NCBI GenBank assembly: GCA_018449595.1
Contig: JAAVUU010000001.1
Coordinates: 310,001 to 374,000 of the forward strand
Direction of reading: 5' to 3'
DNA: 64,000 bases
From: Rhizobiales bacterium dw_265
Lineage (GTDB): Bacteria; Pseudomonadota; Alphaproteobacteria; Micropepsales; Micropepsaceae
The notes beneath the pieces were generated by a model, which was not told the DNA's origin, did not search any database, and saw only the letters and a list, made by a program, of their open reading frames with translations. The position numbers were made by a program, and so were the translations under genes. Positions 3,059 to 64,000 of the stretch are shown here, piece by piece (the stretch's first letter is position 1; every line of letters begins with the position of its first letter).

Positions 3059-3119
3059 GATCCTGCGATGTTTTTCCCGAGGCAACGCCATTGATAACGA
3101 AGCGGGCCCTCGCCTGCAA

Positions 3120-5661: not shown

Positions 5662-5756
5662 CCTGTTCTCCCGCTGTCGTTGTTTTTCTTCTTTAGGGCG
5701 CGCGGTGCCTGACGGCGTTGATCGCCGTCAATCGCAAGCGCGACTCGCCTGCAAAA

Positions 5757-6077: not shown

Positions 6078-6091
6078 TGCCGGGCCGCCGC

Positions 6092-6280: not shown

Positions 6281-6381
6281 CTTCCTGCTCCCTGTTCCTG
6301 ATTCTTTAATATTGGACGTCGGTCGAACCCCGGCCTTGATCGGAATCAAAACAGCAGGCGATCCCGTGCCAGGCCGCGCCC

Positions 6382-6822: not shown

Positions 6823-6953
6823 GGAACAACTCCGCTTCTGCGAAAACCGCGGGGCAACGTAAGGGGACCGGAAGATCATTCGTTGATCGGCATCAATGCG
6901 CTGCGCGATTTGTTCGTATCTGATATGGTTGCTGCAGACGGGAGAATGACGAC

Positions 6954-16055: not shown

Positions 16056-16068
16056 GTCGCCCGGGCCT

Positions 16069-17106: not shown

Positions 17107-17107
17107 G

Positions 17108-17683: not shown

Positions 17684-17700
17684 GATCGTATCCTTCCGGT

Positions 17701-18087: not shown

Positions 18088-18096
18088 TATCGTCTC

Positions 18097-18984: not shown

Positions 18985-20090
18985 GCGCCATCTCCCGCCG
19001 CCAGCGCCGCGACGCGGGGCGCGATCTGGGACAAGGGAAGGATCGCGGCGCAAAGCCCCGCCGTCGCCACGGCGCCGGGCATGCCCCAGACCACGCTGCT
19101 CTCCTCATCCTGGGCAATGGCGGCTCCGCCGGCCTGGACGATCGCCTGGGTGCCTTCCAGTCCGTCGCTGCCCATGCCGGTGAGCATGATCGCGAGCGCG
19201 TGCTGGCCGAAGCATTGGGCGGCGCTGCGGAACAGGGGATTGACGGAGGGACGGCAGAAATTCTCCGGCGGTTCCTTGGTCAGCCCGGTGCAGAAATCGG
19301 ATTTGTCCCGAACGATCTTCATGTGGAAGTCGCCGGGCGCCAGATAGACATGGCCCGGCTGCAGCACGATGCCGTCCAGGGCTTCCCAGCAGGGCCGCCG
19401 GCCGGCCTGCGCGACATGCTCGGCCAGTATGGGTGTGAAGGTCGCCGGCATGTGCTGGGCGATCAGGATGGGAAGCCGCATTGTCAGCGGAAGATCGCGG
19501 AAGAAGGCCTGGAGCGCCTGGGGACCGCCGGTCGAACTGCCGATGACCAGGACTTTCGGCGCCATCGGTGCGAAGGGCCGCAGCGCATGGTTGCGCGCCG
19601 GCGCCGGGGCGGCTTTCGCCGGCCGGGCGGGACGCGGCGGCGCCGTTACGCGGCGGCGCCCCAGGGCCCGGACCTTGGCGAGCAGGTCATGCCGGTAGAT
19701 CTCCGCCGAGCGGAGCTGGCCGGTGCTGGGCTTGGGAATATAATCGGTGGCGCCTTGGGCCAGCGCGCAGAGACTGATTTCCGCGTTCCGCTGGCTCAGA
19801 GTGGAGGCGATGATGACATGGACGCCGCGGTCGATCTCCAGCAGTTTCGGCAGGGCCGCAAGCCCGTCCATCACCGGCATTTCGATGTCCAGGATGATCG
19901 TGTCCACGGTGCGGCGCGCAAGCTGCTGTACCGCCATCAGGCCGTTGCTGCAGGAGGCCACGACCTCGATGCCGGGGTCGGCCTCCAGCAGGCGCGTGGT
20001 CAGGCCCCGCACCACGGCGGAATCGTCGACCACCATCACGCGGATGCGCGGCGCGGAAACCGGGGCGGAACGGGCGCTTTCGTCGTTCAT
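18981..20090 (-). CDS. cheB: Chemoreceptor methylesterase/deamidase CheB
   Basis: A 369-residue protein with an N-terminal receiver (MVVDDSAVVRGL; phospho-Asp in IILDIEMPVMDG) and a C-terminal methylesterase. Catalytic residues lie in GSSTGGPQAL (Ser), AQHMPATFTP (His) and LTGMGSDGLEG (Asp). It removes methyl groups added by CheR, and its activity rises on phosphorylation by CheA. A basic Pro/Ala-rich linker (RPARPAKAAPAPARN) joins the domains. The start overlaps the upstream cheY-like gene by ATGA. Confidence 0.94.
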   Translation of the reverse strand: MNDESARSAPVSAPRIRVMVVDDSAVVRGLTTRLLEADPGIEVVASCSNGLMAVQQLARRTVDTIILDIEMPVMDGLAALPKLLEIDRGVHVIIASTLSQRNAEISLCALAQGATDYIPKPSTGQLRSAEIYRHDLLAKVRALGRRRVTAPPRPARPAKAAPAPARNHALRPFAPMAPKVLVIGSSTGGPQALQAFFRDLPLTMRLPILIAQHMPATFTPILAEHVAQAGRRPCWEALDGIVLQPGHVYLAPGDFHMKIVRDKSDFCTGLTKEPPENFCRPSVNPLFRSAAQCFGQHALAIMLTGMGSDGLEGTQAIVQAGGAAIAQDEESSVVWGMPGAVATAGLCAAILPLSQIAPRVAALAAGDGA

Positions 20091-20497
20091 GCCGCTTCCT
20101 CTTCCACCGCTTCCAGGCCGAGCTGAATCAGCTTGTCGCGCAGGATTTCCCTGTCGAACGGCTTCATGATGTATTCGTCGGCGCCCGCCGTCATGGCGAT
20201 GCCGATCTTTTCCAGGGTGTTTTCCGTGGTGCAGAGGATGACCTTGGGCTGCGGCGCCAGGTCCATCGCCCGCAGGGTCACAAGACAGGTGATGCCGTCC
20301 ATGACGGGCATGTTCCAGTCGAGCAGGATCACATCGGGCGTGACCTCGCGGCACATCTCCAGCGCCTGCCGCCCGCTGGCGCTCTCCGCGACGATGTAGC
20401 CGAGGTCGCGGAACATCCCGCCGGCGATGCGGCGCACGGTGGTGGAATCGTCCACCACCAGGCAGAGACGCGGATAGCCGATATCGGGAATTGTCAT
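20087..20497 (-). CDS. CheY-like single-domain response regulator
   Basis: A 136-residue receiver. Acidic pair in LVVDDSTT, phospho-Asp in VILLDWNMPVMDG and Lys in YIMKPFDRE. It carries TTEN at the switch Thr position, common in alphaproteobacterial CheY proteins. It is the second CheY of the operon, between cheA and cheB, and may serve as phosphate sink or as the main motor output; the sequence does not say which. Stop overlaps cheB start. Confidence 0.9.
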   Translation of the reverse strand: MTIPDIGYPRLCLVVDDSTTVRRIAGGMFRDLGYIVAESASGRQALEMCREVTPDVILLDWNMPVMDGITCLVTLRAMDLAPQPKVILCTTENTLEKIGIAMTAGADEYIMKPFDREILRDKLIQLGLEAVEEEAA

Positions 20498-20504
20498 CTT
20501 GTCC

Positions 20505-23168: not shown

Positions 23169-23186
23169 TGCGGCAGCTCCGTTCCG

Positions 23187-23681
23187 TCAGAATTTGATGG
23201 CGATGTCGAGCAGGCGCTCGATGTCGAGCGCGACCAGAAGGCCGCCCTCGATGCGGTAGACGCCCTCGGCGATGTCGCGCCACAAGGGGTCCAGGGTCGA
23301 AGGGTTGCTCTCGTGTTCGTGCGCCCCCGGGCTCATGATGTCGCCCACCGAGTCGACCAGCAGGCTGTAGAATTCGGCGCCGCTCTCGATGGTAACGCCC
23401 ATCCGGCGCTTCTGCGCCGTGCCCTCGTATGGCGGCAGGGCCAGGCGCTTGCGCACATCGATCACCGTGACGATGCGGCCGCGCAGGTTGATCGAGCCGC
23501 TGATCTCCGGCGCGCTGAGGGGCACGGCGGCGATGACATCGGGCATCAGGACATCCTGGACGCGCTGGACGGGAATGCCGAAGAGCTGGTTGTGCACGAC
23601 AAAGGTGACGAAGGTTTCGGAGCCGTCGGGCGCGGGGCGTCTGGCATTGGCGGCGGCGGCGATATTCGGCGCGGTGGACAT
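23187..23681 (-). CDS. cheW: Chemotaxis coupling protein CheW
   Basis: A 164-residue scaffold that links receptors with CheA. The CheW fold begins at TFVVHNQLFGIPVQRVQDVL and includes GSINLRGRIVTVIDVRKRL. The first 25 residues are low complexity. ATG at 23681 is chosen because the region upstream is the G/C-rich hairpin and not protein-like. cheA starts 18 bases downstream of its stop. Confidence 0.93.
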   Translation of the reverse strand: MSTAPNIAAAANARRPAPDGSETFVTFVVHNQLFGIPVQRVQDVLMPDVIAAVPLSAPEISGSINLRGRIVTVIDVRKRLALPPYEGTAQKRRMGVTIESGAEFYSLLVDSVGDIMSPGAHEHESNPSTLDPLWRDIAEGVYRIEGGLLVALDIERLLDIAIKF

Positions 23682-23725
23682 GGCGTGATCCTGTTGCTTC
23701 AGAGGCGGAGCGGACGATCTGCCCG

Positions 23726-23771
23726 CGATGGGGGGCGGCTGGGCCGGGGGGACGGCACCGCCCCCCCATCG
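23726..23771 (-). other. G/C-rich hairpin between MCP and cheW
   Basis: CGATGGGGGG at 23726-23735 pairs with CCCCCCATCG at 23762-23771, with a loop rich in G/C and possible extension by CGG/CCG. It lies in the 119-base gap between the MCP gene and cheW, the only sizeable gap in the operon. No T-tract follows on the minus strand, so partial attenuation or mRNA stabilisation fits better than full termination. Not tested. Confidence 0.5.
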
Positions 23772-23800
23772 CTTGGGCAACCCTGGTGGGGTTCGGCGGA

Positions 23801-25480
23801 TCAGGCGGCCTTGAGATTGCTCAGGAACTGTCCGACGAGATTTTTCAGCTCAGTCGAGTTCTCGCCAAGGCGGCGTGACGCCGACAGCACCTGGTTGGCC
23901 GCGCCGCCGGTTTCGTTGGCGGCCTGGGTGACGCCGGTGATGTTCGACGACACTTCCTGGGTGCCCTTGGCGGTTTCCTCGACATTGCGGGCGATCTCCT
24001 GGGTCGCGGCGCCCTGCTCCTCGACGGCGGCGGCGATGGTGGTGGCGATCTCCTTGATCTCACCGATCCGCTTGTCGATGGTGCCGATGGCGTCCACGGC
24101 CTGGTCGGTCGCCTCGCGCACTTCGGCGATCTGGGTGCTGACCTCCTCGGTCGCCTTCGCCGTCTGGTTGGCCAGGTTCTTCACCTCGGCCGCGACCACC
24201 GCAAAGCCCTTGCCCGCATCGCCGGCCCGCGCCGCCTCGATGGTGGCGTTGAGGGCAAGGAGGTTGGTCTGGTCGGCAATGTCGGTGATCAGGCTGACGA
24301 TCTGGCCGATCTTCCCGGCGGCGGACAGCAGGCGCTGGACCAGCTGCTTGGCCTTTTCGGCATCGGCGACCGCGCTGTTGGCGATGGTGCTGGAATGGCT
24401 GACCTGGCGGCTGATCTCGGAGATCGAGGACGACAGTTCCTCGGCCGCCGAAGCGACGGTCTGGACATTGGCGGCGCTTTCTTCCGACGCCGCGGCCACG
24501 ACGCTGGCCTGCTTGGTGGTTTCCTCGGCCGTGGCGCTCATCGCCGAGGCGGAGGATTCCAGCTGGCCGGCCTGGGCCGAGACTTCGGTGACAATGCCGC
24601 CGACGCCGGATTCGAAATTGCGCATCAACTCATTCAGGCGCACCAGCCGGGCTTCGGTCTGGCGGGCGGCTTCCTCACGCTCCGCCCGCATCCTGTCTGC
24701 TTCCATGCCGTTCTTGCGAAACACTTCGACATCGCCGGCCATGATGCCCAGTTCGTCCTTGCGGTCGATACCGGCAACCGTCACATCGTATTTTCCCGTG
24801 GCCAGCGTGCGCATGCATTCCGACAGGGACTTGATCGGCTTGACAATGCCAGTCTGGGCAATCAGCCAGGCGATGAAAATCCCGAACGCGATGCCGCCCA
24901 CCATGATACCGCCGGAAAGCCACATGGTATGGCTGGTCTGAGCCGCCAGCGCATCGTCGCCTTCCTGGATCTGGCTCAGGATCTTCTCGCGCAGCCGATC
25001 GAGATCATCCGTCAGCTTGTCCTGCGCCGTGATATAGGGGCCTTCGGCCTTGCGCGCGGCCTCGTCGTTATCCTTGAGGGCGGCATCTATCATCGGCTGG
25101 GCAGCGGAGCGCGCATTGGCATATTCCGCCAGCACGGTATCGACCTCGTCGCCATGCTGGGGCGTCAGCGATTTGATCTCGGCGGCATATTTCTTGAGGT
25201 CGGCATCGTTCTGATCGATATTCGCCAGCAGGCCGCGCATCTGGGCCACGTCCGACTCGATGATCATGCCATAGACGTCCGACCGGAAATTGGCGGCGTC
25301 GACGCGCAGGCGCACAAGGTTCAAGGCGCTGGTCTCGTCCTTGTCCAGAAAGCTGGAATAGGAACCGGTGACGGAGCGCATCTGCACCATCATGAAGGCA
25401 GTGCCGCAGATGATGATCGCGGCAAGCGCCACAATCGAGCCGATGATTTTGGTGCTGATCTTGAAATCCTGCAGACGCAT
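23801..25480 (-). CDS. Methyl-accepting chemotaxis protein (transmembrane)
   Basis: A 559-residue receptor. It has an N-terminal membrane segment (about 12-34), a periplasmic four-helix-bundle sensor (about 40-185), a second membrane segment (about 187-210), HAMP, and a long signalling coiled coil. The hairpin tip has [30 protein letters not shown], cut here: [20 protein letters not shown] is diagnostic. There is no C-terminal CheR/CheB pentapeptide. GAGGG lies upstream of the ATG. It heads the che operon, so the 390-base gap upstream holds the operon promoter. Ligand unknown. Confidence 0.93.
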
Positions 25481-51785: not shown

Positions 51786-52159
51786 TCATCCGCGCCGCCT
51801 TTGCGATCGGTCTGGTTGCGCTGCTGATACCCAAGGAACCGGACGTCGGTCTCGGTCATCCCCAAAGCATTCTCTCCGCGCCGTCGGCAATTTTGGCGGC
51901 CGCTTGCGCACAACTCGCACAAAGTACCGGCCCTTGCTCCACCATGTCGCAACAGGACGTGTCGCATGCGGCGGACAATGCCGGTGATACGTCCGTTTTC
52001 GAAAAGCTCCATCGCGTCAAGGCCGAGATCGAAGAGGACATGCACCGCCGCGCGGCAAGCAGAATTATGGTGGGAGAAGAACAGGGGGCGGGCCGAAACA
52101 AGACGGGCCGCCCCGCTGTCGCCACCTCCCAAACCGATTTCGAAAGTGACGCGCGATGA
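51782..52159 (+). CDS. DUF5330-like small membrane-anchored protein
   Basis: A 125-residue protein with an N-terminal hydrophobic helix ending in MIIRAAFAIGLVALLIPKEP, a pattern seen in DUF5330-type proteins, followed by a conserved-looking Cys pair (CAQLAQSTGPC) and a hydrophilic tail. Start and stop both overlap neighbours by ATGA, so it is translated with the flanking genes. Function unknown. Confidence 0.6.
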   Translation: MIIRAAFAIGLVALLIPKEPDVGLGHPQSILSAPSAILAAACAQLAQSTGPCSTMSQQDVSHAADNAGDTSVFEKLHRVKAEIEEDMHRRAASRIMVGEEQGAGRNKTGRPAVATSQTDFESDAR

Positions 52160-53403
52160 ACACACCCTCTAGCAGCGACGTGCGCGCCGTGAACGGCAAG
52201 CTGGACGTGGACCAGATTGCCGTGAACCCCATATTTCATTTCGATCTCACCCCCGTGCTTGAGCATTGCGACTCTGCGATTGGCCGCAACCATGACTGGC
52301 TGCAACTCATGTGCGAGCGGCACATCGCAAAGATCGCACCGAAAGAGATCGTGCTTTTCAAGGATAACGGCTTTTTCCTGGTCGTCCAATCCTGCAGCGG
52401 CGGCGCGTCGCTTGCGGTCGCCAATACGGTCAACGTCGCCCTTCTCAAGCACTTCTTCGGCACCGAAAGCCTGAGGCCGGAACTTGGAACGCTATTTCGT
52501 GTGGCGACGCGCTGCGAACTCGGAGAGGATGTTCCCCCCGAAATTTTCCAGAAAATCGCATCGCCGGAACAGGTTTCCGAACCGGCGGTGCGGAACGGCG
52601 CTTCCGTCGGGGATACCGCCAAAGACACGGATCTGTTTTTCCGCCTCGACGCCAGCGGCATCACGGGGTGCAGCGGGCTGAGAACGGCCTTCGTTCCTGT
52701 CTACGACCTGCGCAGAAACACACCTACCACGTTTTTTTGTGCGCCGGTTTCCGCCGACATTTCGGGATCCGTGATCGGCGCCAAGGCGCTGAAAAACATC
52801 GATCCGCGCGACCGCCCCTGGCTCGACGAAGCACTGCTCAAGCAGGCGATCGACCTGACCAGGCAGATCGCAAAAGCGGATTTCGTGGCCGCGATCGGCG
52901 TGTCCGTCAGCTATGAAACCCTGTCATGGTCGCGTGGCCGACATCTTTATCAGAGCGCGCTGCGCGGCGCGGACGCCATGGCAAATCCGTTCCTCCTGAT
53001 AAAAATCGAGGACATTCCCGTCGGCACGCCGCTGACTCGCATCGCTGAAGTCGTCGGCGCCATACGGCCCTTTGTGCGGCGCATATTTCTGCACCTCCCG
53101 GAAAGCGAGATGCGATCGCTGGAAAGCGGAAATATCGGAATGTCGGGGGTTGTCGGTACATTGCCGGACGACGTAACGCCCAGAACCTCTGTCAAAATCG
53201 CAACCTCGCTGATGCGGGTCGCAAATGCCCAGCGCGCTTTTCCCTGCATGCATGGCGTGAACAGCGAACAGTCCCTTGGTCTGGTTCGTGCCGCGGGCAT
53301 TCGCTTCGCGTCCGGCAGAGCCCTCGGCCTCGACCTTCTGTGTGACGGTCGGCCGCTGAAGATGATCGGGTCTCTCGCGCGCGGTTGCGCGCAGGCCGCC
53401 TAG
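52156..53403 (+). CDS. Unknown protein with degenerate EAL-like C-terminal half
   Basis: A 415-residue soluble protein. The second half has a TIM-barrel-like order: LRTAFVPVYDLRRNTPT, FLLIKIEDIPVGTPLTRIAE and, near the end, NSEQSLGLVRAAGIRFASGR followed by ALG, recalling the closing strands of EAL domains (Q...G..F.QG..F). No E-x-L catalytic motif is visible, so phosphodiesterase activity is unlikely. The first 150 residues are unrecognised. Its stop overlaps the stop of the triple-receiver kinase gene. The EAL link is inference. Confidence 0.55.
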   Translation: MNTPSSSDVRAVNGKLDVDQIAVNPIFHFDLTPVLEHCDSAIGRNHDWLQLMCERHIAKIAPKEIVLFKDNGFFLVVQSCSGGASLAVANTVNVALLKHFFGTESLRPELGTLFRVATRCELGEDVPPEIFQKIASPEQVSEPAVRNGASVGDTAKDTDLFFRLDASGITGCSGLRTAFVPVYDLRRNTPTTFFCAPVSADISGSVIGAKALKNIDPRDRPWLDEALLKQAIDLTRQIAKADFVAAIGVSVSYETLSWSRGRHLYQSALRGADAMANPFLLIKIEDIPVGTPLTRIAEVVGAIRPFVRRIFLHLPESEMRSLESGNIGMSGVVGTLPDDVTPRTSVKIATSLMRVANAQRAFPCMHGVNSEQSLGLVRAAGIRFASGRALGLDLLCDGRPLKMIGSLARGCAQAA

Positions 53404-55481
53404 GGGGCCCCGACGGCCGGAACATATCCGCCAAAACGGCTGTCCACATCTGCCTCGGTCGCTTCCTCGACAGGCAGATGGAAATGGAATGTTACGCCTC
53501 CACCGGGATTCGGAGTTAGCCAGATTTTTCCGTCATGGGCTTCGATAATCGACTGACAGATCTTGAGCCCGAGCCCCATTCCGTTCTGCTTGGTCGTGGC
53601 AAACGGTTCGAACAGATTGTTCACAATCTCGGGTGCGATGCCGGGGCCAGTGTCGGAGACGGCCACGCCGACATATCCCGGCTCGCTCATTCCCGTCGCA
53701 ATCGTGAGCTCGCGACGGCTGACGCCTTGCATGGCGTCGATGCTGTTGCGAAACAGATTGACCAGCACTTGCTGAATTTGGACCTTGTTGACGATCAGGG
53801 GCGGCAACGCGGGATCGAGTGCGATATGAACCTTCACGCCCATCTGCTCGCCGCCGACCAGACCCAGCGCAATGGCCTCCTCCACCACCTTGTGAAGATT
53901 TTCGCGCGTCCTGTTGACTTCCCGCTTTTCGATGAACTCGCGCAAATTCGCGATGATCGCGCCGGCCTGCTTGGCCTGGTCCTTGGCTTGCACCATCAGT
54001 TCGAGGGCCGGCGCAATCTGCGGAGCGTCCAGCTTGTCGATCGTATAGTGTGCGGCATTGATGAAGTTCATGATCGCCGCCAGCGGCTGGTTGATCTCAT
54101 GCGCCAGCGTTGAGGCCATCATGCCCATGGCATTCCAGCGCGACACATGGGCCAGTTCGGCCTGAAGGCCGTTCATCATTTCCTGGGAGCGCTTGCGCTC
54201 CGCCATCACGGCCTGCATTTCGCTTAATTCGCGCGCCGCGCGCGCCTCGACGGCTTCCAGTTCCTTCTGTACCAACTGTTCGCGAAAGAGCCGATTCTCG
54301 TCTTCAAACTGCTTGCGCCGGATCTGCGCCAGCACGCGCGCGCGCAACACCTCGAATTCGTTCGACTTCGCGATGAAATCATCCGCGCCCGCGCCGAGCC
54401 CCTCGATCATGGCATCGCTGCCTTCAAGCGCCGTCAGCAGAACAACGGGTATCGTCCGCGAGAATGGCGAAACTTTGATGCACCGACAGGTCTCATGGCC
54501 GCCGATTCCAGGCATGAGCAGATCGAGCAGAATGCAATCGACGGATTGCGCCGAGAGCAGGTCGAGCGCCTCCTCGCCCGACCGCGCCAGCACGACTTCG
54601 TATCCATCCAGACGCAATTCGCCCGCGAGCGCCTGAAGATAGGTCTCGCTGTCGTCCACCGCGAGTATCTTTTTAGGGCCGAGAAGGCTTCTGCGGGCAT
54701 GGCTTTCCGCCCAGCCCTCGCCCGCGCTCCGCAGGACCGCGCTCAATCTTGCGAGGACGACCGCAATGTCCTGGCCCTTGCGCACGAAAGCATCCGCACC
54801 CGCGTCAAGCGCCCGCACCTCGGCGCCATGTTCGTCCGACGCCGTGAGCAGAATGCACGGCGTGTGGCGCAGCGCCACATCCATCCGGATGCGCCGCATG
54901 ACCGAAACACCGTCTATGCCGGGAAGCATCCCGTCCACGATCATGGCGGTGGGGCGCGCGTCCGCCGCCAGGCGCAAGCCTTCCTCGCCCGAACTCGCCG
55001 CGAGCACGTCATAGCCCGCGCCCTCCAACGCGTCTTGCAACCGGTCGCGAAATGTCGGGCTGTCGTCGATGATCAGGATCGTCTCGCGGGCTTCTGCGTC
55101 CACGGCCTGCCCGCGACGCAGCAATTCGCGCGCGCGAGAGACGACATAACTGGCTTCGTAAGGCTTTCCGATATATTCGTCAGCGCCGGTTTTCAGGCCG
55201 CGCACACGATCGCGCACCTGCGCCTCGGTCGAAAGAAGCATGATCGCCGTATCGGCCCATTGCGGTGTCTCGCGTATCTCCTTGAGAAGCTCCACCCCGT
55301 CCGCGTCCGGCAGCAGGACATCCAGAATGATCAACCCGAACAGCGCTTCATCCGCCAGACAGCGCCTGGCCTCCCGCGCTGTCGCACAAACGACGGGAAC
55401 GAAACCGGCTGCCTCCAACGCCTCCGAGAGGTTCATTCGCACGGTCAGGCTGTCATCTACGACAAGGACGCGGACGTTCAT
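53400..55481 (-). CDS. Triple-receiver histidine kinase
   Basis: A 693-residue soluble protein. Three receivers in a row: RVLVVDDSLTVR with IILDVLLPDADG; LIIDDSPTFRDR with MIVDGMLPGIDG; ILAVDDSETYLQ with ILLDLLMPGIGG. A coiled coil (about 385-440) leads to a kinase core with phospho-His in ASTLAHEINQPLAAI, NLFRNSIDAM, DTGPGIAPE and GMGLGLKICQSI. No membrane segment. It is the last gene of the second chemosensory operon, overlapping cheB, in the position usually held by the output regulator. It probably receives phosphate from the CheA and relays it on. Confidence 0.9.
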   Translation of the reverse strand: MNVRVLVVDDSLTVRMNLSEALEAAGFVPVVCATAREARRCLADEALFGLIILDVLLPDADGVELLKEIRETPQWADTAIMLLSTEAQVRDRVRGLKTGADEYIGKPYEASYVVSRARELLRRGQAVDAEARETILIIDDSPTFRDRLQDALEGAGYDVLAASSGEEGLRLAADARPTAMIVDGMLPGIDGVSVMRRIRMDVALRHTPCILLTASDEHGAEVRALDAGADAFVRKGQDIAVVLARLSAVLRSAGEGWAESHARRSLLGPKKILAVDDSETYLQALAGELRLDGYEVVLARSGEEALDLLSAQSVDCILLDLLMPGIGGHETCRCIKVSPFSRTIPVVLLTALEGSDAMIEGLGAGADDFIAKSNEFEVLRARVLAQIRRKQFEDENRLFREQLVQKELEAVEARAARELSEMQAVMAERKRSQEMMNGLQAELAHVSRWNAMGMMASTLAHEINQPLAAIMNFINAAHYTIDKLDAPQIAPALELMVQAKDQAKQAGAIIANLREFIEKREVNRTRENLHKVVEEAIALGLVGGEQMGVKVHIALDPALPPLIVNKVQIQQVLVNLFRNSIDAMQGVSRRELTIATGMSEPGYVGVAVSDTGPGIAPEIVNNLFEPFATTKQNGMGLGLKICQSIIEAHDGKIWLTPNPGGGVTFHFHLPVEEATEADVDSRFGGYVPAVGAP

Positions 55482-56551
55482 GCGGGAATATCCGTCAAAG
55501 GCGCGTTCATAAGCGCGGCGAGCGCCGGGCCGATCCGATCGATGGGAAGAATTTGTTCCGCGGCGCCGAGAAGGATTGCTTCGCGCGGCATCCCAAAGAC
55601 GACCGACGTTGCTTCGTCCTGCGCGATCGTAAGACCGCCGCCGTCACGGATGGCGCGCAGCCCCGCAGCGCCGTCACGCCCCATGCCTGTCAAAAGACAG
55701 GCCGCCACCGCGGGCGCGAGCGTCTTCGCGATCGACTCAAACAGCACATCCACCGACGGCCTGCAGGAGTGCCGCTCCGGGCCGGATGTAAGACGCAATA
55801 ACCCGTCCTGAACGATGAGATGCCGGTCGGGCGGCGCCATCACGACCCGCCCCCGGACGCCCGACAATCTTTCGCCGTCTTTGGCAAAGGAAACGCGATG
55901 TCCGCTTTGGCCGTCGAGCCAGTCCGCGAAGGCCGCGCCAAACGGCTCCCCGATGTGAATGACAAGCAGCACAGGAACAGGAAAAACCACCGGAAGCGTT
56001 CGCAGGATTTCAACAACAGCCGCCGGCCCGCCTGTCGATGCGCCGATTGCCACTGCCGTGCATTTCCCCGGCCCGGACGGCCGTTGTGGAACCGGCGGCC
56101 CAGCGGGCGAACGCCCCAGCGTTCCGATGCGCAGGCGTGGATGCGTTATCACCTTGATCCGGGAAACGAGTTTCACCGTGGAAATGAAGCGCCGCTCCCA
56201 CGCGCCTTCGGCCTCATCGCCTGCCGGCTTCTCCAGCACTTCGACCGCACCCGCCGCCAGCGCGTCGTAAGTCCGGAAAAGTTCACCGCGATTGGTGGAC
56301 GCGGAAACGATCAGAATAGGCGTCGGAAAATGCGCCATGATGTATTCGGTGACGGCCACGCCAGTCATGACCGGCATCATCATGTCCAGCGTGACCACAT
56401 CCGGGCGCAGATCCCGGCAAAGCTCTATGGCCTGCTTGCCATCGCCCGCTTCTCCGACGACATCGATTTCCGGATCAGACGCGAGGACTTCCACCAGGCG
56501 GCCGCGCACGGTCGCCGAATCCTCCACCACCAGAACGCGCAATCTTGTCAT
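55478..56551 (-). CDS. cheB: Methylesterase CheB of the second chemosensory system
   Basis: A 357-residue protein. Receiver: VVEDSATVRGR with VTLDMMMPVMTG. Methylesterase: GASTGGPAAV (Ser), VIHIGEPFGAAF (His region) and LTGMGRDGAAGL (Asp). It would demethylate the receptor encoded two genes upstream. Start overlaps the CheA stop and its stop overlaps the kinase start, so translation is coupled at both ends. Confidence 0.93.
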   Translation of the reverse strand: MTRLRVLVVEDSATVRGRLVEVLASDPEIDVVGEAGDGKQAIELCRDLRPDVVTLDMMMPVMTGVAVTEYIMAHFPTPILIVSASTNRGELFRTYDALAAGAVEVLEKPAGDEAEGAWERRFISTVKLVSRIKVITHPRLRIGTLGRSPAGPPVPQRPSGPGKCTAVAIGASTGGPAAVVEILRTLPVVFPVPVLLVIHIGEPFGAAFADWLDGQSGHRVSFAKDGERLSGVRGRVVMAPPDRHLIVQDGLLRLTSGPERHSCRPSVDVLFESIAKTLAPAVAACLLTGMGRDGAAGLRAIRDGGGLTIAQDEATSVVFGMPREAILLGAAEQILPIDRIGPALAALMNAPLTDIPA

Positions 56552-58608
56552 GACCGTTCCAGCAACTCACGGATGGTTTCGAGAACCTGCCCCTGATCGA
56601 ATTCGCCTTTTATCACATAGGCGCGCGCGCCGACATCTATTCCGCGTCGCTGATCTTCGGGCGAATTGCGCGACGTCACCAGAATGGCCGGGATCGCGCG
56701 CAGGTCCGGATCGGCGCGCGTTCTTTCGACGAAAGAAAATCCGTCCATGCCGGGCATTTCGACATCGACCAGAAATAGCGCATAACGCCGGTGCTTCACT
56801 TTCTCCAGCGCTTCTTCCGCAGAGGTCGCGAGTTCGACTTCGTACCCGGCGGATTCCAGAATGCTTTGCTCCAGCACGCGCGTCGTGAGCGAATCGTCGA
56901 TAATAAGGATGGGCGCCAATGGAACCGCAGCCGCGTCCCGGGACAGTCCGCCCGTTCGCAGCGCCGCCGCCACGAGACCTTGTGGATCGAGTACAAGGCG
57001 GGGAATGCCCTCTGCATCCAGAGAGACGCCGGCGACCATCGGATCGGCAAACGCACCGGCCGGAAGCGGGCGCACGACGATCTCAGACGCGCCCAGCAAA
57101 CGATCCACGCCGATCGCGGCCAGCGCCGCGGAACCTTCGACGAGCACGGCCGAATGATTGCCCGTAATGCGCACCGGCGTGCGTCCCTTGAGCGCGCCGG
57201 AAAGCGGCGCAAACGTAATAACCTTGCCGTCATGGGCGATACTCGCCCCGTCCGCTGTTCGCGCAATATCGCCGGCCGCGAGCCGCAAACTGCCGCGAAC
57301 CGCGCCAAGCGGCATGGCGAAAACAGCACCTGCGGTTTCGACGAGGAGCGCCTCGACGGAAGAGAGAGATACCGGAACGACCAATTCGATGCCGGTGCCT
57401 TTGGATGTGGTGCGCGCGCTTACCTCGCCGCCCAGATGCGACGCCACTTCCCGAACGATATCCAGACCAATGCCGCGGCCGGAAAGTTCGGTTATCACGC
57501 CGGACGTCGTGACGCCGCCTTTGAGGAGAAGCGCCAGCAGATCGTTCGCCTCCATCGCCTGCACCTCGGGGGCGGACAGACCGCCGCCGCGCAAGACTTT
57601 TCGAACCGCGTCCAGATCCACACCGCGTCCGTCATCGCGGCAGATAAAGGCGACGCGATTGCCGCGGCGCACGACTTCGAGTTCCACATGACCGACAGGC
57701 GGCTTGCCGGCATTGGCACGGTCCTCGCCGGTTTCGATTCCGTGCACGACGGCGTTTCGAACCAATTGCAGAAGCGCGCGCTGGACCAGCGACAGCACCT
57801 GCGCGTCGAGGCGAACGTCGTCGCCCTTGAACGAAAAGGAAACCTGTTTCTTAAGCGATTGGGCGGCATCGCGGGCCGCACGCTCCAGCGATGCAAGCAC
57901 GACGCTGCACGGCAACAGCCGAAGCCTTTCGGCTGCCGTGCGGGCCTGCTGCATTTCGCGCTCCGCCAGATCGATGCCGCTCTTGAGCGCCTGCTCCATC
58001 GTTGCGATGACGCCCCGCAGTTCTTCGGCAACCGCCGACGTCTTGAACGCCGCGGCATCGGACACCGAAGCGGCTTCCTTTGCGCGGAAAGACGCTTTCC
58101 CATCGACGAGGCGGTCGGCCAGGCGGCGTGCGCGAACGGCGAGTTCGACGGTGTGGCGCATCGCGCGCATCTGCACGCCGGCTTCGGAAATTGCGTCCAG
58201 CAGCGCGTCCATCTCCGCCGCACCGCCGCGCAGGACCGTGGAGGCTTCATCGAGAACCGCGCGTTGCGCCGGGCCGGAATCCCCGGATTTACGTGGTTCG
58301 AGCTCCGCGACCAGCGCGGCGATCGCATCGACATGCGCCAATATCCCGTCGAATGCGTCTTTGGGGATGTCGCCTTCTTGATCCCGGAACGGCGACAGCG
58401 CGTCCTCAAGAGCATGGGTCCGCTCGGCGATGGCGCGCTGCTTCACGACACCGGCCGCGCCCTTCAGCGTATGCGCGAGTCTGAGCATACGACCGACAAG
58501 GTCCGGTGCCATTTCTTTTTCGAGATCCAGGACTCCGCGTTCCAACGCGTCGGAAATCTCCCGCGCCTCGACACGAAAATAACGGAGCGGGTCCCTGGCT
58601 CCGCTCAT
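56548..58608 (-). CDS. cheA: Hybrid CheA-receiver kinase of the second chemosensory system
   Basis: A 686-residue kinase of WspE-like layout. HPt with phospho-His46 in RLAHTLKGAAGVVKQ; dimerisation and ATP domain (QLVRNAVVHGIE, RDDGRGVDLD, GRGIGLDIV); CheW-like domain; C-terminal receiver (PILIIDDSLTTRVL, phospho-Asp in FLVDVEMPGMDG, and a KGEF region at the Lys position). Shorter than the other CheA here because it has one CheW-like domain. Start overlaps the MCP stop. Confidence 0.93.
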   Translation of the reverse strand: MSGARDPLRYFRVEAREISDALERGVLDLEKEMAPDLVGRMLRLAHTLKGAAGVVKQRAIAERTHALEDALSPFRDQEGDIPKDAFDGILAHVDAIAALVAELEPRKSGDSGPAQRAVLDEASTVLRGGAAEMDALLDAISEAGVQMRAMRHTVELAVRARRLADRLVDGKASFRAKEAASVSDAAAFKTSAVAEELRGVIATMEQALKSGIDLAEREMQQARTAAERLRLLPCSVVLASLERAARDAAQSLKKQVSFSFKGDDVRLDAQVLSLVQRALLQLVRNAVVHGIETGEDRANAGKPPVGHVELEVVRRGNRVAFICRDDGRGVDLDAVRKVLRGGGLSAPEVQAMEANDLLALLLKGGVTTSGVITELSGRGIGLDIVREVASHLGGEVSARTTSKGTGIELVVPVSLSSVEALLVETAGAVFAMPLGAVRGSLRLAAGDIARTADGASIAHDGKVITFAPLSGALKGRTPVRITGNHSAVLVEGSAALAAIGVDRLLGASEIVVRPLPAGAFADPMVAGVSLDAEGIPRLVLDPQGLVAAALRTGGLSRDAAAVPLAPILIIDDSLTTRVLEQSILESAGYEVELATSAEEALEKVKHRRYALFLVDVEMPGMDGFSFVERTRADPDLRAIPAILVTSRNSPEDQRRGIDVGARAYVIKGEFDQGQVLETIRELLERS

Positions 58609-60077
58609 GCACGCGCCTCATTCCGGATGATGCGGGAGAGATCGCGCGAGAGGTTTGAGAGTTCGGATGCGGTCTGCAAAATCTGCCCGGAGCTGGCCTC
58701 GGTCTCCTTCGTCGCCTGCGCGACGTTGGAAATCGCGACATTGACCTGCTCCACCGCGGTCGCCTGCTGCTTCGTCGAAAGTTCGATTTCTTTCGCAGCT
58801 TCGGTCGTGGTCGATACGAGGCCCGATATCTGCTTGAAGGACGACGCGACCTCCTCGAACTGGCGCGTCCCCTGATCGACCGCCTTCGACCCGCTTTCCG
58901 TCGCCATGACCGTGGTGTTCACGGCGGCGCGGACATCGTCGATCAGCCCGCGGATCTCTTTCGTGGAACCCGCGACGCGATCGGCGAGCTTGCGGATTTC
59001 GTCCGCAACGACCGCAAAGCGCCTGCCGGTTTCGCCTGCGCCTGCCGCCTCGATCGTGGCGTTGATCGCCAGAATATTGGTCTGCTCCGCCAGTTCGGAA
59101 ACGATTTCGAGAACCGATCCGATCTGCTGCGATTTCTTGCCCAGGTCGAGCATATGATTGACAATCAGATCGACCTGACGGCGGATGCTGGAGATCGAAC
59201 CATTCGCCTTTTCCACCGTCCCGTCGCCCAGACGCGCCGAACTGTCCGTGTCTTCCGCGACCTGCGCGACACGCCGGGCGCTTTCCGCGATCTGACGCGA
59301 AGTCGCGATAAGTTCGCGAATGGTGGTCGCGATTTCATTCATCGCGCTGGACTGTTCCTTGGCGCCGGTCGCCTGCTGGTTGGCCGCGGATTGCAGTTCC
59401 GCCGACGAGCTTTGAACGAGTCCCACCGCACCGCCGATCCTTTTGGTGAGGGAGCCGACGATCAGCCAGCCGATCAGGGCAACGATAATGACTCCCGTCA
59501 AACCGCCCCAAAGGATAATTCCCATCGTCCATTGCGCGCTGGCATTGGCTTCTGCGGCGCGCTGCTCAAGCAAATTGGCTTCCTCATGGTCGCCCGCCGC
59601 GATAATGGCGCGCATCTGGTCCATGAGTTCCTTGCCTTCGTTGCCGCTGATGACTTTAAGGGCGGCATCGAAGCCCTGCGTCCGCCTCAGATCGATCGTT
59701 TTCTGAAGCTCCGCCAGCTTTGCATTCATCAGCGGCAGAATGGCGTTGAGCCTTTGCTGCTGCTGGGGATTATCGGCCGTAAGCCCACGCAGCCGTGCAA
59801 GAACGTCTCCCGCAGCCAGGACCGCCGCATCGTGGGGCGCAAGATAGCTGGGGTCTCCCGTGAGGACGAAACCGCGCTGACCGGTTTCCGCGTCTTTGAG
59901 GGTCGATAGCAGGTCGGCGAACTGGCGCCGAACCTCATGGGTGTGATTCACCAGCGCGCCGTTTTCGATCAGGCTGGATGTGCTCCGGTACCCCACCAGC
60001 GCGACGATCAGCAGCGTCAATGCGGCCAGCGCATAGCCCGCGCTGAGCTGCTGTCCGAAAGTCCAGTTTCTTGTCAT
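58605..60077 (-). CDS. Methyl-accepting chemotaxis protein with CHASE3-like sensor
   Basis: A 490-residue receptor. Membrane segments at about 12-30 and 190-210 (IILWGGLTGVIIVALIGWLI) enclose a helical sensor with LLSTLKDAETGQRGFVLTGD, typical of CHASE3. No clear HAMP is visible after the second segment. The signalling tip reads LAEQTNILAINATIEAAGAG, with AAGAG where AARAG is usual. It ends without a CheR-binding pentapeptide. Coupled with cheW upstream and cheA downstream. Confidence 0.92.
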   Translation of the reverse strand: MTRNWTFGQQLSAGYALAALTLLIVALVGYRSTSSLIENGALVNHTHEVRRQFADLLSTLKDAETGQRGFVLTGDPSYLAPHDAAVLAAGDVLARLRGLTADNPQQQQRLNAILPLMNAKLAELQKTIDLRRTQGFDAALKVISGNEGKELMDQMRAIIAAGDHEEANLLEQRAAEANASAQWTMGIILWGGLTGVIIVALIGWLIVGSLTKRIGGAVGLVQSSSAELQSAANQQATGAKEQSSAMNEIATTIRELIATSRQIAESARRVAQVAEDTDSSARLGDGTVEKANGSISSIRRQVDLIVNHMLDLGKKSQQIGSVLEIVSELAEQTNILAINATIEAAGAGETGRRFAVVADEIRKLADRVAGSTKEIRGLIDDVRAAVNTTVMATESGSKAVDQGTRQFEEVASSFKQISGLVSTTTEAAKEIELSTKQQATAVEQVNVAISNVAQATKETEASSGQILQTASELSNLSRDLSRIIRNEARA

Positions 60078-60625
60078 GCGTCAGTCCCCCTTTGGATGGC
60101 GCCCGCGGTGTCGATGCGGGCGGATATTCTCTTTACGATGGAAGCGATGGAAATCACCGGGCGTGGTCCGCCTGCCAGCATGGCTGTCGCCCGAACATGC
60201 CCGTTTTGCGCATTGTCCCGTAGCGACGAGACCTGCGCTCCTGGAAGCTGGACATACCCGTCGAACCCGTCGAATGCGAACGCCGCGATCAGATCGCCGC
60301 CTGTGCGCATCAGCCAGCGCGGCGCATCTTCGCCCGCGCTGTAACCCAGAAAGACGGCCAGGCTGTAAACCGCCACGATATCGCCGCGCAGGCCCGCGAC
60401 GCCGAGAAGCCCAACGGTCTCGCCGGGCAGCCACACAACCTTCCTGTCAGCGAAAATGCCTGTGATTTCGGTCAGCGCGACGGCATAGGGATCGCCGCCC
60501 ACCCGGATCGCGAGGAACTTCCCGATATCATGGCCCACCGGCTCCGGCACCCTGGCAAACCCGTTGTCGAATGCTTCGCGGAGATCTTGCGCCCTGTGTG
60601 CCACGTCGGCCTGTTCGCCCATCAT
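60074..60625 (-). CDS. cheW: CheW-like scaffold protein (second system)
   Basis: A 183-residue coupling protein. The CheW fold starts at FLAIRVGGDPYAVALTEITG and includes VGLLGVAGLRGDIVAVYSLA. ATG at 60625 overlaps the CheR stop (ATGA), which decides the start. It couples the receptor to CheA together with the second CheW of the operon. Confidence 0.88.
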   Translation of the reverse strand: MMGEQADVAHRAQDLREAFDNGFARVPEPVGHDIGKFLAIRVGGDPYAVALTEITGIFADRKVVWLPGETVGLLGVAGLRGDIVAVYSLAVFLGYSAGEDAPRWLMRTGGDLIAAFAFDGFDGYVQLPGAQVSSLRDNAQNGHVRATAMLAGGPRPVISIASIVKRISARIDTAGAIQRGTDA

Positions 60626-62142
60626 GCCGCCCCCCTGCATCCGGCCAGTTCCGCGCGGCATAATGCGACCAGCGCCTCACGTCCGAAACCGCCGCCGAAC
60701 AGAAGCAGGCGCGACGCGTCCTCGCGCTGCAAAAGCACGAGCGCCTGCTGCAACTCCTGCCGCGCCGTTGCGCGATCCTCGCTGCGGCGTGCCAGCAGGC
60801 CAAGATGAAGCCGCGGCATCGCAAAATCGGGATCGAGATAGACTGCGACCTGATCGTGATCCGCGGCCCCGCCCGTATCGCCTGCGCTCTCCCGGCAAAG
60901 CGCCATGAGGTAATGCGCCGCCGCACTCATTTCGTCGCGCGCCAGAAGATCCTCGCAGACCTTCTCCGCATTGCCCAAATCGCCCCCGTGGGTGAGAAGC
61001 ACCGCCGATAGCAGCAACACCTCGGGTGCCTGTGCCGTGTCCGACGGCAGCGCCTTCAGCATTGCCTGTGCCTCCGAGAATCGCTCACGCTTCAGAAGTT
61101 CGAGCGCAGGCGCGAGGTCCGGCTTCCGCGCATCGCGCTGTGTACCGACCATGACGCGTTCTTTCGCCGGCGTTGCCGTGAGCGACTGAACCCGTTCGGA
61201 TGCGCGCCGGATGGTATCGACCCAAGAGTCCTCCGCATCAATCGCCGGCACGATATTGCCGGGAAGGAACGCATGGGCCAACGCCATGTCGGGATCGGAG
61301 CGGCGCTCGTTTCCGTCCTTGCGCTGGTAATAGAATGTTCCGTGCGTGTGGCGCAGATGAAATTCCTGCGAAAGACCGCGCAGGGTTTCAGCATGGCCGA
61401 GAAACAGAAAGCCGCCGGGCGTCAGGCTGGCCGCGATGCGCGCAATGATGGCCTGCGCGACCTGTGGCGTGAAATACATGATGACGTTGCGGCAAAATAC
61501 GATGTCGAAAGACTCCGGCTGCCAGAAGGTGGCGTCCGGGACGGCAAGATTTCGCTCCTCGAACGTCACCATGTCGCGGACCCTGGCGTCGAGAACAAAA
61601 TCCCGTCCCTCGGCGCGAAAGTAGCGCGAATGGAGCGCGGCCTCCGTCTGGCGCAGCGACCATGTCGAATAACGCGCAGCGGCGGCCTTCCTGAGCATCG
61701 CGACGTTGGCGTCGATGCCGTGAATCGATACGTTCCAATCGCCCGCCGTCAGCGCATCGCGCACGATGATCGCCAGCGAATAGGCTTCTTCGCCGGATGC
61801 GCAGCCCGCCGACAGCATGCGAAGCCTTCGATAGGCAGAGCGCGCATCGAGCCGGTTCGGGAGCGCCGTCTCCGCGAAAGCGCGCATCTGGTCGGTGTTC
61901 CGGAAAAAGGATGTTTCCGTCACAGTCAGTTCCTGCACGAGCGCGCGCATTTCCTCGCGTGGCGGATTCGGGGATCCCAGATCGCGCAGATAGCCTTCGG
62001 CGCTACTGCCGTTCGCTTCCATGCGCCTCTGCAACAGGTCGGAAAGAAATTCCTGCTTGCCGACGTCGAAATACAGGCCGAGCCACCGTGACACGAAGGC
62101 CTGAAATCGCTCGACATCGGCGATGCAGGCGGTCGCTTTCAC
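60622..62142 (-). CDS. cheR: CheR methyltransferase with C-terminal TPR-like repeats (WspC-like)
   Basis: A 506-residue protein. The methyltransferase part has VTETSFFRNTDQMRA, the SAM motif LSAGCASGEEAYSLAI and VFCRNVIMYFTPQVA. From about residue 340 helical repeats follow, such as LLKRERFSEAQAMLKALPSD and AAAHYLMALCRESAGDTGG, the TPR-like extension seen in WspC-type CheR proteins. It methylates the operon receptor. GTG/ATG choice is not an issue; ATG at 62142 begins two bases before the upstream cheW stop. Confidence 0.9.
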   Translation of the reverse strand: MKATACIADVERFQAFVSRWLGLYFDVGKQEFLSDLLQRRMEANGSSAEGYLRDLGSPNPPREEMRALVQELTVTETSFFRNTDQMRAFAETALPNRLDARSAYRRLRMLSAGCASGEEAYSLAIIVRDALTAGDWNVSIHGIDANVAMLRKAAAARYSTWSLRQTEAALHSRYFRAEGRDFVLDARVRDMVTFEERNLAVPDATFWQPESFDIVFCRNVIMYFTPQVAQAIIARIAASLTPGGFLFLGHAETLRGLSQEFHLRHTHGTFYYQRKDGNERRSDPDMALAHAFLPGNIVPAIDAEDSWVDTIRRASERVQSLTATPAKERVMVGTQRDARKPDLAPALELLKRERFSEAQAMLKALPSDTAQAPEVLLLSAVLLTHGGDLGNAEKVCEDLLARDEMSAAAHYLMALCRESAGDTGGAADHDQVAVYLDPDFAMPRLHLGLLARRSEDRATARQELQQALVLLQREDASRLLLFGGGFGREALVALCRAELAGCRGAA

Positions 62143-62143
62143 C

Positions 62144-62578
62144 TCACGCCTCCTGCAAAGCGAGAGCGTCTTGCATCTGCTCCGGCAGCAACCGGGCAGC
62201 CCGCAATACCAGCAGAAATGCCTCGTCCAGCGTGGCGATGTCCGCGATAACGGAGGTGGTGGCTTCCCGAAGCAGCGGCGGAAGCTGCTGAAGGGAGGCC
62301 GAAGAAATATCCTGAACGCCTACGACCGCTTCGACGGCCAGGGCAACACAGCGCTCGCCGATGCGCAAAGTGAGAAATCTTGTTGTCCTCGGCGCGTCTT
62401 CCGCTCCCAGAACGGCTCCCACATCGACGACCGGAATAACTGCTCCGCGAACAAGGCAAAGCCCCAGCACAAAGGCGGGCATATCGGCCAGCGCTTCAAC
62501 GGGAAGAGGCCGCATCGTCTCCACTATTTGAGACGCCGGCAGCGCGCACAAGCGGCTTCTTGCCTTGAACAGCACCAT
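62144..62578 (-). CDS. CheW-domain protein (second CheW of the operon)
   Basis: A 144-residue CheW-type protein: LFKARSRLCALPASQIVETM and LGLCLVRGAVIPVVDVGAVL fit the fold. It is the first gene of the second chemosensory operon. The start is uncertain: ATG at 62578 gives a normal CheW N-terminus, while a TTG at 62608 has a better ribosome site (AAAGGGG, 6 bases). Two CheW proteins in one operon match Wsp-type systems. Confidence 0.82.
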   Translation of the reverse strand: MVLFKARSRLCALPASQIVETMRPLPVEALADMPAFVLGLCLVRGAVIPVVDVGAVLGAEDAPRTTRFLTLRIGERCVALAVEAVVGVQDISSASLQQLPPLLREATTSVIADIATLDEAFLLVLRAARLLPEQMQDALALQEA

Positions 62579-62614
62579 CAAGGACGGGTTTCCGGGTGCG
62601 CCGCTCAAATACAA

Positions 62615-62958
62615 CCCCTTTCATTCCCGATTCCCGCCCGGCGATCCCGGAGCAATCCCTCACAATAGCAATATGGAATCGCATGGGACGGCCAATCCGC
62701 AGACCTGGAAAAGACGCGGCCAGAAACCATCCGTGTTCCTTCGGCCGCGGCTGCCCCTCGCAGAGGCCTGGCTTTTTATTGTCCCGGAAAACCCGGGCTG
62801 CACGACCCAGCCCAATTCGATAATTGTTTCTTTACCTCAAAAGCCGATTATTAAAATCGGGTTATTCATCTAAGATGAACAGTAGGGCGATTCCAAGTCC
62901 CCACCTAAGGGTAATTGGGATTGGTTGTGTCTGTTTGTCTCAAACGCCGAGGTCATAG
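62615..62958. other. Divergent promoter region
   Basis: About 340 bases between the second chemosensory operon and the FixJ-type gene. It becomes AT-rich at 62810-62880. Near 62900 is CCCCACCTAAGGGTAATTGG, an imperfect palindrome that could be an operator. No gene-like frame with a ribosome site was found. Confidence 0.4.
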
Positions 62959-63579
62959 ATGCCCCATGACGCGACGGTTTTTGTAGTGGACGACCATGAC
63001 GGCGTGCGTGCATCGCTGCGCGCATTTCTGGAGGCGGTCGGATTGCACGTCGCGGACTACGCATCGGCGGATGTTTTTCTGGAGCAGACGACCGCGGAAC
63101 GCGGTGATTGCATCCTGGTGGACATGCGCATGCCGGGGATGACAGGTCTGGAATTGCGGGAAGAACTGACGCGGCGCGGAAGCGCTGTACCTGTCATTAT
63201 TATAACGGGACACGCCGACGTGTCGTTGGCCGTCAAAGCCATGAAGGCCGGCGCCGCGGATTTCATCGAAAAGCCCTACGACAACGACACTTTGCTCGAC
63301 AGCGTCAGGCGAGCATTGGAGGTGAGCGGCCATGCGCGGGTGCAGGCTGAGGAAGCCAAAGCCGCGACGGGCCTTATCATGCTGCTGACCGACCGCGAGC
63401 GCGATGTCCTGAGCCGACTGGTGCTTGGGCAATCCAACAAGATCGTTGCCCACGAACTGGGTATTTCGCCCCGCACCGTCGAGGTCCACCGTGCCCGCAT
63501 CCAGAGCAAGCTGCAGGTGCGCGGCTTGTCGGACCTGGTGCGAATCGTGCATGCCGCCGAAATGCGCGAACCGGTCTAA
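62959..63579 (+). CDS. FixJ/NarL-type response regulator
   Basis: A 206-residue regulator. Receiver: VFVVDDHDGVRA, phospho-Asp in CILVDMRMPGMTG, Lys in DFIEKPYDND. LuxR-type helix-turn-helix: LTDRERDVLSRLVLGQSNK followed by ISPRTVEVHRARI. FixJ-like proteins act on promoters when phosphorylated by a partner kinase; none is adjacent except the chemosensory operon. GAGG lies about 6 bases before the ATG. A second FixJ-type receiver gene follows 60 bases on. Confidence 0.92.
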   Translation: MPHDATVFVVDDHDGVRASLRAFLEAVGLHVADYASADVFLEQTTAERGDCILVDMRMPGMTGLELREELTRRGSAVPVIIITGHADVSLAVKAMKAGAADFIEKPYDNDTLLDSVRRALEVSGHARVQAEEAKAATGLIMLLTDRERDVLSRLVLGQSNKIVAHELGISPRTVEVHRARIQSKLQVRGLSDLVRIVHAAEMREPV

Positions 63580-63639: not shown

Positions 63640-64000
63640 ATGCACCCCAGAGTTGTCGTGAAAGATTTGACTGGCAAAATCGTTTGGGTTGTTGACGACA
63701 CCGAATCGATACGAACCTCCGTTCGCGCGGTTTTGGAGGCTCGAAGCCACAACGTGCGTACCTGCGCATCCGCGAGCGAATTCCTTCAGCAATTCGTGCC
63801 CGGCGAGGCCGGGTGCCTCATCGTCGATTTCCAGATGCCGGGGCTGACTGGACTGGAGCTCTTGAAACAATTGAGGGTCTCAGGCCACACTTTGCCGGTC
63901 ATAGTCGTCACGGGCGCAGGCGACGCCACATTGGCAAAACGCATCGTGGAGAGCGGTGCAATAGCGATGCTTCCCAAGCCTGTCGATGCCAGTCATCTCG
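63640..64000 (+). CDS. FixJ-type response regulator, 3' end outside the window
   Basis: At least 120 residues of a receiver domain: WVVDDTESIRTS, phospho-Asp in CLIVDFQMPGLTG and the Lys in MLPKPVDASHL. It is like the preceding regulator. The start is ATG at 63640 or GTG at 63658; neither has a strong ribosome site. The rest, presumably including a DNA-binding domain, lies past position 64000. Confidence 0.85.
   Translation, partial: MHPRVVVKDLTGKIVWVVDDTESIRTSVRAVLEARSHNVRTCASASEFLQQFVPGEAGCLIVDFQMPGLTGLELLKQLRVSGHTLPVIVVTGAGDATLAKRIVESGAIAMLPKPVDASHL

Follow-up and report, generated by a model that had tools for sequence, protein, structure and literature searches.

A chemosensory operon ending in a triple-receiver kinase, and its predicted output to a FixL/FixJ-type gene set in Rhizobiales bacterium dw_265

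The 64,000-nucleotide stretch of Rhizobiales bacterium dw_265 that was analysed here (contig JAAVUU010000001.1, positions 310,001 to 374,000; the window in what follows) carries a seven-gene che-like operon on its minus strand (53400-62614) that ends in a soluble kinase with three receiver (REC) domains, an arrangement described in an earlier note on this DNA and confirmed by gene positions and Pfam domains. Judged by domains, the operon is an ACF-class (alternative cellular functions) chemosensory system of the CheR-TPR type: a chemoreceptor (MCP), CheA, CheW and CheR-TPR stand in one cluster with a multidomain response regulator. The kinase half of this last protein is, by its sequence matches, a FixL-type HisKA-HATPase core, and the FixJ-type regulator and the lone receiver next to the operon appear to belong to this kinase. 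We consider it probable, with some reservation, that the operon outputs to a FixL-type two-component system, in which the signal would pass from CheA to one or more of the receivers, from these to the kinase, and on to FixJ. The receptor array would then probably control a gene regulator rather than a flagellum, and since the likely FixJ target lies next door, the path from receptor to promoter would lend itself to reconstitution, both in vitro and in a reporter strain.

A CheA-controlled, receiver-bearing kinase is already known, with the Che3 system of Rhodospirillum centenum as biochemical precedent. What appears to be new here is the FixL-type kinase half, with the neighbouring FixJ and lone receiver as its apparent set. 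Among the matches listed in the literature on che systems with hybrid kinases or with FixJ- or LuxR-type outputs, nothing closer than R. centenum Che3 was found.

The kinase and its place in the operon

The kinase was used to scan genome contigs; 80 loci of 117 relatives were retained and all screened for che genes, with three plus ten of them examined gene by gene. A full-length kinase homologue in a che context was present at three of the 80 (L001, L002, and L003). A survey of gene order, as suggested in the earlier note, recovered all seven genes in the same order in Sphingomonas caeni (L002; kinase 64 % identical) and Sphingomonas soli (L003; 63 %), with CheR identities to the window copy of 61 % and 51 %, respectively. 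The third locus, from the metagenome-assembled genome UBA5157 (L001; kinase 73 % identical), lies on a contig that begins inside CheA and reads CheA'-CheB-kinase-FixJ-REC in one direction, followed by a convergent EAL-like gene. In the window and at all three loci, the end of cheB and the kinase gene share four bases. The arrangement is taken to be more than chance, since the two Sphingomonas genomes and the partial UBA5157 contig keep the order.

All three receivers retain their phosphorylation residues (D9/D10/D54/S84/K106 in REC1, D139/D140/D183/T213/K235 in REC2, and D276/D277/D320/T350/K372 in REC3), and these are invariant in an alignment of four homologues, except for D139 of REC2, which is E in S. 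caeni. Invariant columns amount to 47 % of REC1, 57 % of REC2, and 63 % of REC3, as compared to 46 % in both the DHp and the CA domain; REC2 and REC3 are thus under stronger constraint than the kinase half, with REC1 being about equal to it. In a search of the PDB, REC3 matches PleD (4.3e-30). Each of the three receivers forms one clade in a receiver tree, the deeper order of which is not resolved and in which long branches meet, so that the tree is silent on which receiver CheA uses. This tree, as well as those of kinases and FixJ proteins discussed below, was built under LG+G4 without a mixture model and rooted at the midpoint.

The DHp motif of the kinase is LAHEINQPL with His461. For residues 420-672, the best PDB match is the FixL half of engineered LOV-FixL proteins (1.3e-63), and the best NCBIfam match of the kinase is FixL (2e-77, 261 bits), which covers the kinase half only and stays below the full-length cut-off of 850. 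Pfam gave no PAS match in the protein, which has the three receivers instead, and an HWE-type core had no match at E 0.01. No 19-residue segment reaches a hydropathy of 1.6, and the label "soluble" given to the kinase in the earlier note fits, as the maximum over such segments is only 1.52. An AlphaFold model built from four sequences (mean predicted local distance difference test, pLDDT, 72.7; predicted TM-score, pTM, 0.36) places the receivers ahead of one helix, residues 376-483, that runs into the DHp domain. Ranked by E-value, the top Foldseek matches of this model are LvrB (8vc9; 3.3e-21) and LOV-FixL chimeras; normalised by query length, TM-scores are only 0.24 for LvrB and 0.22-0.26 across these matches.

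A FixL/FixJ-type gene set around the operon

Related kinase cores were gathered from congeneric and Sphingomonas genomes, with one sequence (L141_1588, 24.5 % identity) left out of trees and counts. For 25 of the 27 related kinases without receivers, a FixJ-type gene is encoded on the same strand at most 300 bases away, counted as gap or overlap of the frames, and a lone REC lies no more than 200 bases from FixJ at at least 16 of the 27 loci, many of which are short. PAS domains were found in each of the 14 non-receiver kinases scanned with Pfam. The congeners G027 and G028 carry, in order, a kinase, FixJ, a lone receiver and, after about 0.8 kb, an EAL-like protein; the scanned G027 copy of the kinase is PAS-PAS, and identities to the window genes are 59 % for FixJ, 48-51 % for the lone receiver, and 43-46 % for the EAL-like protein. 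No che genes were recognised in the 19 kb read at these two loci. The FixL/FixJ-type gene set of congeners thus surrounds the che operon in the window. Both G027 and G028 hold two kinase/FixJ/lone-receiver sets within about 11-13 kb (at 2284-4849 and 12693-15443 of L140, and at 4510-7085 and 12371-15121 of L141).

In the kinase tree, the four receiver-kinases (support 98/90) join kinases of four loci, in G027, G028, G012, and G016 (99/94), and PAS is present in all three of the latter that were scanned. The FixJ tree furthermore joins the FixJ proteins of the window and L001 to those of the same four loci (98/97). Path lengths in the two trees correlate with r 0.75 (n=28) and, after removal of L003 and L117, with r 0.91 (n=26), and in either case none of 2000 permutations was as high. 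This supports the pairing of kinase and FixJ but is no proof, the permutations ignoring shared ancestry.

The relatives show what is likely the ancestral, PAS-bearing form of the locus. It is conceivable, and we hold this tentatively at somewhat less than an even chance, that a natural sensor swap took place, in which three receivers and a complete chemosensory operon replaced PAS at a PAS-FixL-like/FixJ/REC/EAL-like locus, so that the adapting array came to drive FixJ with the receivers as a multi-input gate. The direction from PAS to receivers is suggested by the small size of the clade that the receiver-kinases form amid PAS kinases, in trees that are midpoint-rooted. Congeners with PAS in place of the receivers would accordingly offer a natural before-and-after of an array grafted onto a two-component system. 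If such a swap occurred, the kinase would be able to combine, through its three receivers, input from CheA with that from other phosphodonors, for example, three further probable CheA proteins of the same genome.

Proposed mechanism and known systems

In the scheme that we favour, we infer every phosphotransfer step, the sign of control, and the regulon from sequence. The CHASE3 receptor, the two CheW proteins, and CheA would form an array that is adapted by CheR and CheB. Active CheA, which in this operon keeps the Hpt His and the REC active-site residues, would phosphorylate its own receiver (probably a sink), CheB, and one or more of REC1 to REC3. The phosphorylated receivers, sited where the PAS of relatives stands, would turn the kinase on or off by allostery; the neighbouring FixJ would then be phosphorylated by the kinase and control transcription. 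The lone receiver beside FixJ may be a second acceptor, a sink, or a FixT-like brake; FixT is a lone receiver that inhibits FixL autophosphorylation (PMC7078487, in the part drawn on here).

Transfer from CheA to a receiver of the kinase is proposed by analogy, because CheA3 phosphorylates REC1 of the kinase CheS3 in R. centenum. According to the sections of PMC3868531 that we draw on, Che3 likewise combines a CheA-REC hybrid, two CheW, an MCP, CheR, CheB, and a kinase with N-terminal receivers in one cluster; the receiver of CheA3 itself is a sink, and phosphorylated REC1 is thought to turn CheS3 off. Compared by description, CheS3 acts on the lone CheY3 and consists of two receivers (one without the Asp), PAS, and a kinase of HWE type, whereas the window kinase has three intact receivers, no PAS match, a FixL-type HisKA core, and a FixJ with a DNA-binding domain. 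The window kinase may thus function in the manner of CheS3 with a different type of core.

Three further systems resemble parts of the locus. With FixL-FixJ(-FixT) it shares the FixL-type core, the FixJ-type neighbour, and the lone receiver beside FixJ, but the window kinase lacks a PAS match and has receivers and a chemosensory operon instead. In LvrB of Leptospira (8vc9), an N-terminal REC is joined through a helix to DHp-CA, and upon its phosphorylation a coiled coil forms and the catalytic domains are released; LvrB, however, has one receiver, and its effector LvrC is an anti-sigma factor rather than a FixJ (PMC13269768, in the passages used here). Engineered LOV-FixL chimeras (4gcz, 8a3u, and relatives) likewise place a foreign input on a FixL core, and the homology of the window kinase to them begins at 420-421, where the input part ends; they differ in being engineered and in their LOV blue-light input. 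The sign of control could be positive, by analogy with LvrB, or negative, by analogy with the proposal for CheS3.

Several observations weigh against the route from CheA through the receiver-kinase to FixJ. At its start, the H-kinase_dim profile of Pfam has no match in the operon CheA, and a model in which a single receiver is used leaves the presence of three unexplained. Coupling between receivers and kinase is tentative because confidence in the model is low, with a pTM of 0.36 and a pLDDT below 50 at 438-457 in the linker. Regarding the output, the FixJ and kinase genes of the window are divergently oriented, with 7.5 kb between their starts, and the two trees agree on the nearest neighbour for only 15 of 28 rows. 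In S. caeni, a FixJ-type gene of this clade was not found in 22 kb, and in S. soli, a LuxR-type regulator just upstream of the operon was rejected as the FixJ orthologue, since the tree puts it among the FixJ proteins of other kinases; at the places opened elsewhere in both genomes, the best FixJ matches adjoin other kinases. FixJ would thus seem not to be obligatory, or these two Sphingomonas operons may use another target.

An unlikely alternative is that CheA acts in a CheY-like manner through the lone receiver or FixJ, with the triple-receiver kinase as a sink or side input. The lone receiver next door does carry the receiver residues, and R. centenum Che3 has its lone CheY3; there, however, it was CheS3 that phosphorylated CheY3 and not CheA3 (PMC3868531, same sections). 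Lone receivers moreover adjoin the FixJ genes of PAS kinases in G027 and G028, where che genes are lacking from the stretches read, and the window lone receiver clusters with FixJ receivers in the tree and so seems to be part of the FixL/FixJ set.

Slightly less likely still, the protein could be a classical hybrid kinase whose receivers are fed by its own His461, perhaps on to a separate Hpt, with CheA serving only CheB and its own receiver, so that the two systems do not talk to each other. Hybrid kinases such as RodK and RcsC (cited in PMC3868531) can phosphorylate receivers of their own, and two of the Hpt matches outside the probable CheA frames of the genome lie in short frames of 133 and 206 aa. 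Against this speak the four-base overlap with cheB shared by the four loci and the order of receivers before kinase, which is that of the receiver-controlled LvrB (PMC13269768) and CheS3; in the portions of PMC3868531 considered, CheS3 did not phosphorylate its own REC1.

For the favoured route from CheA through receivers and kinase to FixJ, the Hpt content also bears on terminology. Seven Hpt matches were found in the genome (98.6 % complete), four of them in probable CheA frames and three elsewhere, and Pfam identified none in the kinase and, apart from that of CheA, none in the operon. The earlier note had proposed that CheA feeds the kinase as the input of a second phosphorelay that ends at the neighbouring FixJ-type proteins. 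The path from CheA through the kinase to FixJ is backed by protein family, gene order, and congruent trees and is kept here as a prediction, whereas a phosphorelay finds no support in the locus, and we prefer to speak of a two-tier cascade, because no Hpt follows the receivers in kinase or operon. A relay that uses an Hpt encoded farther away may nevertheless occur.

Comparison with Wsp and with other CheR-TPR clusters

The gene content of Wsp systems (WspA-F and WspR) matches that of the operon up to CheB. The likeness, which includes CheR-TPR, ends there, as the window operon is without a REC-GGDEF protein and its output gene is a kinase. WspR and WspC are a REC-GGDEF and a CheR-TPR protein, respectively (PMC3447774, in the part used). 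Membership in Wsp was rejected on account of the terminal kinase and because none of the six GGDEF proteins that Pfam identified in the genome is a WspR-like protein with a single REC: one bears receivers (two, PleD-like; on contig 11), and five have none. Regarding the GGDEF regulator encoded elsewhere in the same regulon, against which the earlier note had cautioned, no WspR was thus seen elsewhere in the genome. That the true output is cyclic di-GMP made by a GGDEF protein elsewhere, with the FixJ link being coincidental, is very improbable: the likeness to Wsp up to CheB and a degenerate EAL-like gene abutting the operon would fit, but the only receiver-bearing GGDEF protein is on another contig, and the FixJ linkage and congruent trees point elsewhere.

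At 1e-60, an alignment of CheA matched in 13 of the 385 genomes of the class, the own genome included. Ten of 13 foreign CheA places were opened widely; in the other three (L130-L132), the profile match stops short of the CheA receiver. The gene after CheB encodes a kinase with one or more receivers in four of the ten (L145, L146, L151, and L153), a REC-SpoIIE protein in two (L152 and L154), REC-GGDEF in one (L147), and a lone REC in another (L148), and nothing was recognised directly after CheB in the remaining two (L149 and L150, the latter with a TPR-kinase about 0.9 kb on). The kinase cores of L145, L146, L151, and L153 form a clade separate from that of the window, L146 on a very long branch. 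According to the relevant part of PMC3447774, a kinase module is found in about 40 % of the multidomain response regulators of CheR-TPR clusters. The comparison with Wsp systems ending in WspR, made in the earlier note, accordingly holds for gene content up to CheB but proved too narrow as a frame, and the contrast with Wsp is milder than first thought, because kinase endings are common among CheR-TPR clusters.

The REC-SpoIIE phosphatases stand at the end of ACF-like che operons of the same class (L152, 6388-7959; L154, 5393-6970). In three other ACF-like operons, a second, PAS-bearing receiver kinase lies directly behind the first (L145, 1798-3882; L151, 2294-4159; L153, 2650-4197).

Distribution

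Within the sampled genomes, the triple-receiver kinase operon is rare and patchy. Among 36 other genomes of the window's genus, no full-length kinase match was found at E <= 1e-60, with matches to the kinase part only. Searches with an alignment as query, in which only the top two or three candidates were scored per genome, returned, at 1e-100, one genome among 385 in the class (the own) and two among 347 in the S. caeni family (that of S. caeni and one with a broken copy) and, at 1e-90, one among 398 in the phylum (again the own). Broad matches in Pseudomonas and Virgibacillus were set aside, as those opened (L018, L036, and L049) are neighbouring genes for a short receiver protein and a kinase.

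In genome G762 of the S. caeni family, a receiver-kinase copy (L157, 6792-9317) ends prematurely within REC3, at about residue 325, where a transposase-like frame takes over; the 20 kb read there contained no further recognisable che gene.

Genes of the operon and its surroundings

The operon and its neighbours are listed in Table 1. From the second cheW through the kinase gene, successive genes overlap by four bases; CheR and the second CheW overlap by 40 bases, and a single base separates the first CheW from CheR. The chemoreceptor has no HAMP match in Pfam and shows two hydrophobic 19-residue segments reaching 1.6.

Table 1. Features of the chemosensory operon and adjoining genes (window coordinates)
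Feature	Coordinates	Strand	Evidence
CheW (first)	62144..62614	-	PF01584 3.5e-24; same place in L002, L003
CheR methyltransferase with C-terminal TPR	60622..62142	-	PF01739 8.3e-47; TPR_16 1.9e-5, under its cut-off
CheW (second, divergent)	60074..60661	-	PF01584 1e-8
Chemoreceptor, CHASE3 and MCP signalling domain	58605..60077	-	PF05227 6.1e-44, PF00015 5.5e-40
CheA, Hpt - HATPase - CheW - REC	56548..58608	-	Pfam
CheB, REC - methylesterase	55478..56551	-	PF00072 1.5e-19, PF01339 9.1e-56
Kinase, REC1-REC2-REC3-helix-HisKA-HATPase, 693 aa	53400..55481	-	Pfam: three Response_reg, HisKA, HATPase
FixJ-type regulator (REC and LuxR helix-turn-helix), proposed cognate target	62959..63579	+	PF00072, PF00196
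Lone receiver	63640..64000	+	Cut by window end; full length 132 aa (L102:1141-1539)
Degenerate EAL-like protein	52156..53403	+	EAL 0.008, below cut-off; tail to tail with kinase
Intergenic region	62615..62958	.	344 bases between divergent cheW and fixJ; short inverted repeats, e.g. at 62844

The earlier note had placed two FixJ-type regulators next door. The first of these stands: its best NCBIfam match is FixJ (1.5e-68, 230 bits, under the NCBI cut-off of 255), and in the PDB ranking, 1yio ("response regulatory protein") comes first and FixJ (5xso) second. The second, which starts 60 bases after the FixJ gene, turned out to be a lone receiver, with no helix-turn-helix found by Pfam in its full length. 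Inverted repeats in the 344-base region had none in common with the sequences upstream of L002, L003, and L140 or with the kinase-FixJ gap of L001.

The EAL-like gene adjoins FixJ-REC pairs in L001, G027, and G028, together with either PAS or receiver kinases, and its product matches at 1e-10 in seven of 61 genomes (own included), all of the window's genus. A structure model of this protein for a fold search was dropped (mean pLDDT 54.7).

A second, different chemosensory cluster lies at 15342-25480 of the window on the minus strand, comprising CheA (Hpt, dimer, HATPase, two CheW, and REC domains), a 4HB-HAMP MCP, CheW, CheY, CheB, CheR, and CheZ as well as a 247-aa HisKA-HATPase protein. In the genome as a whole, the ten CheW matches fall into four places.

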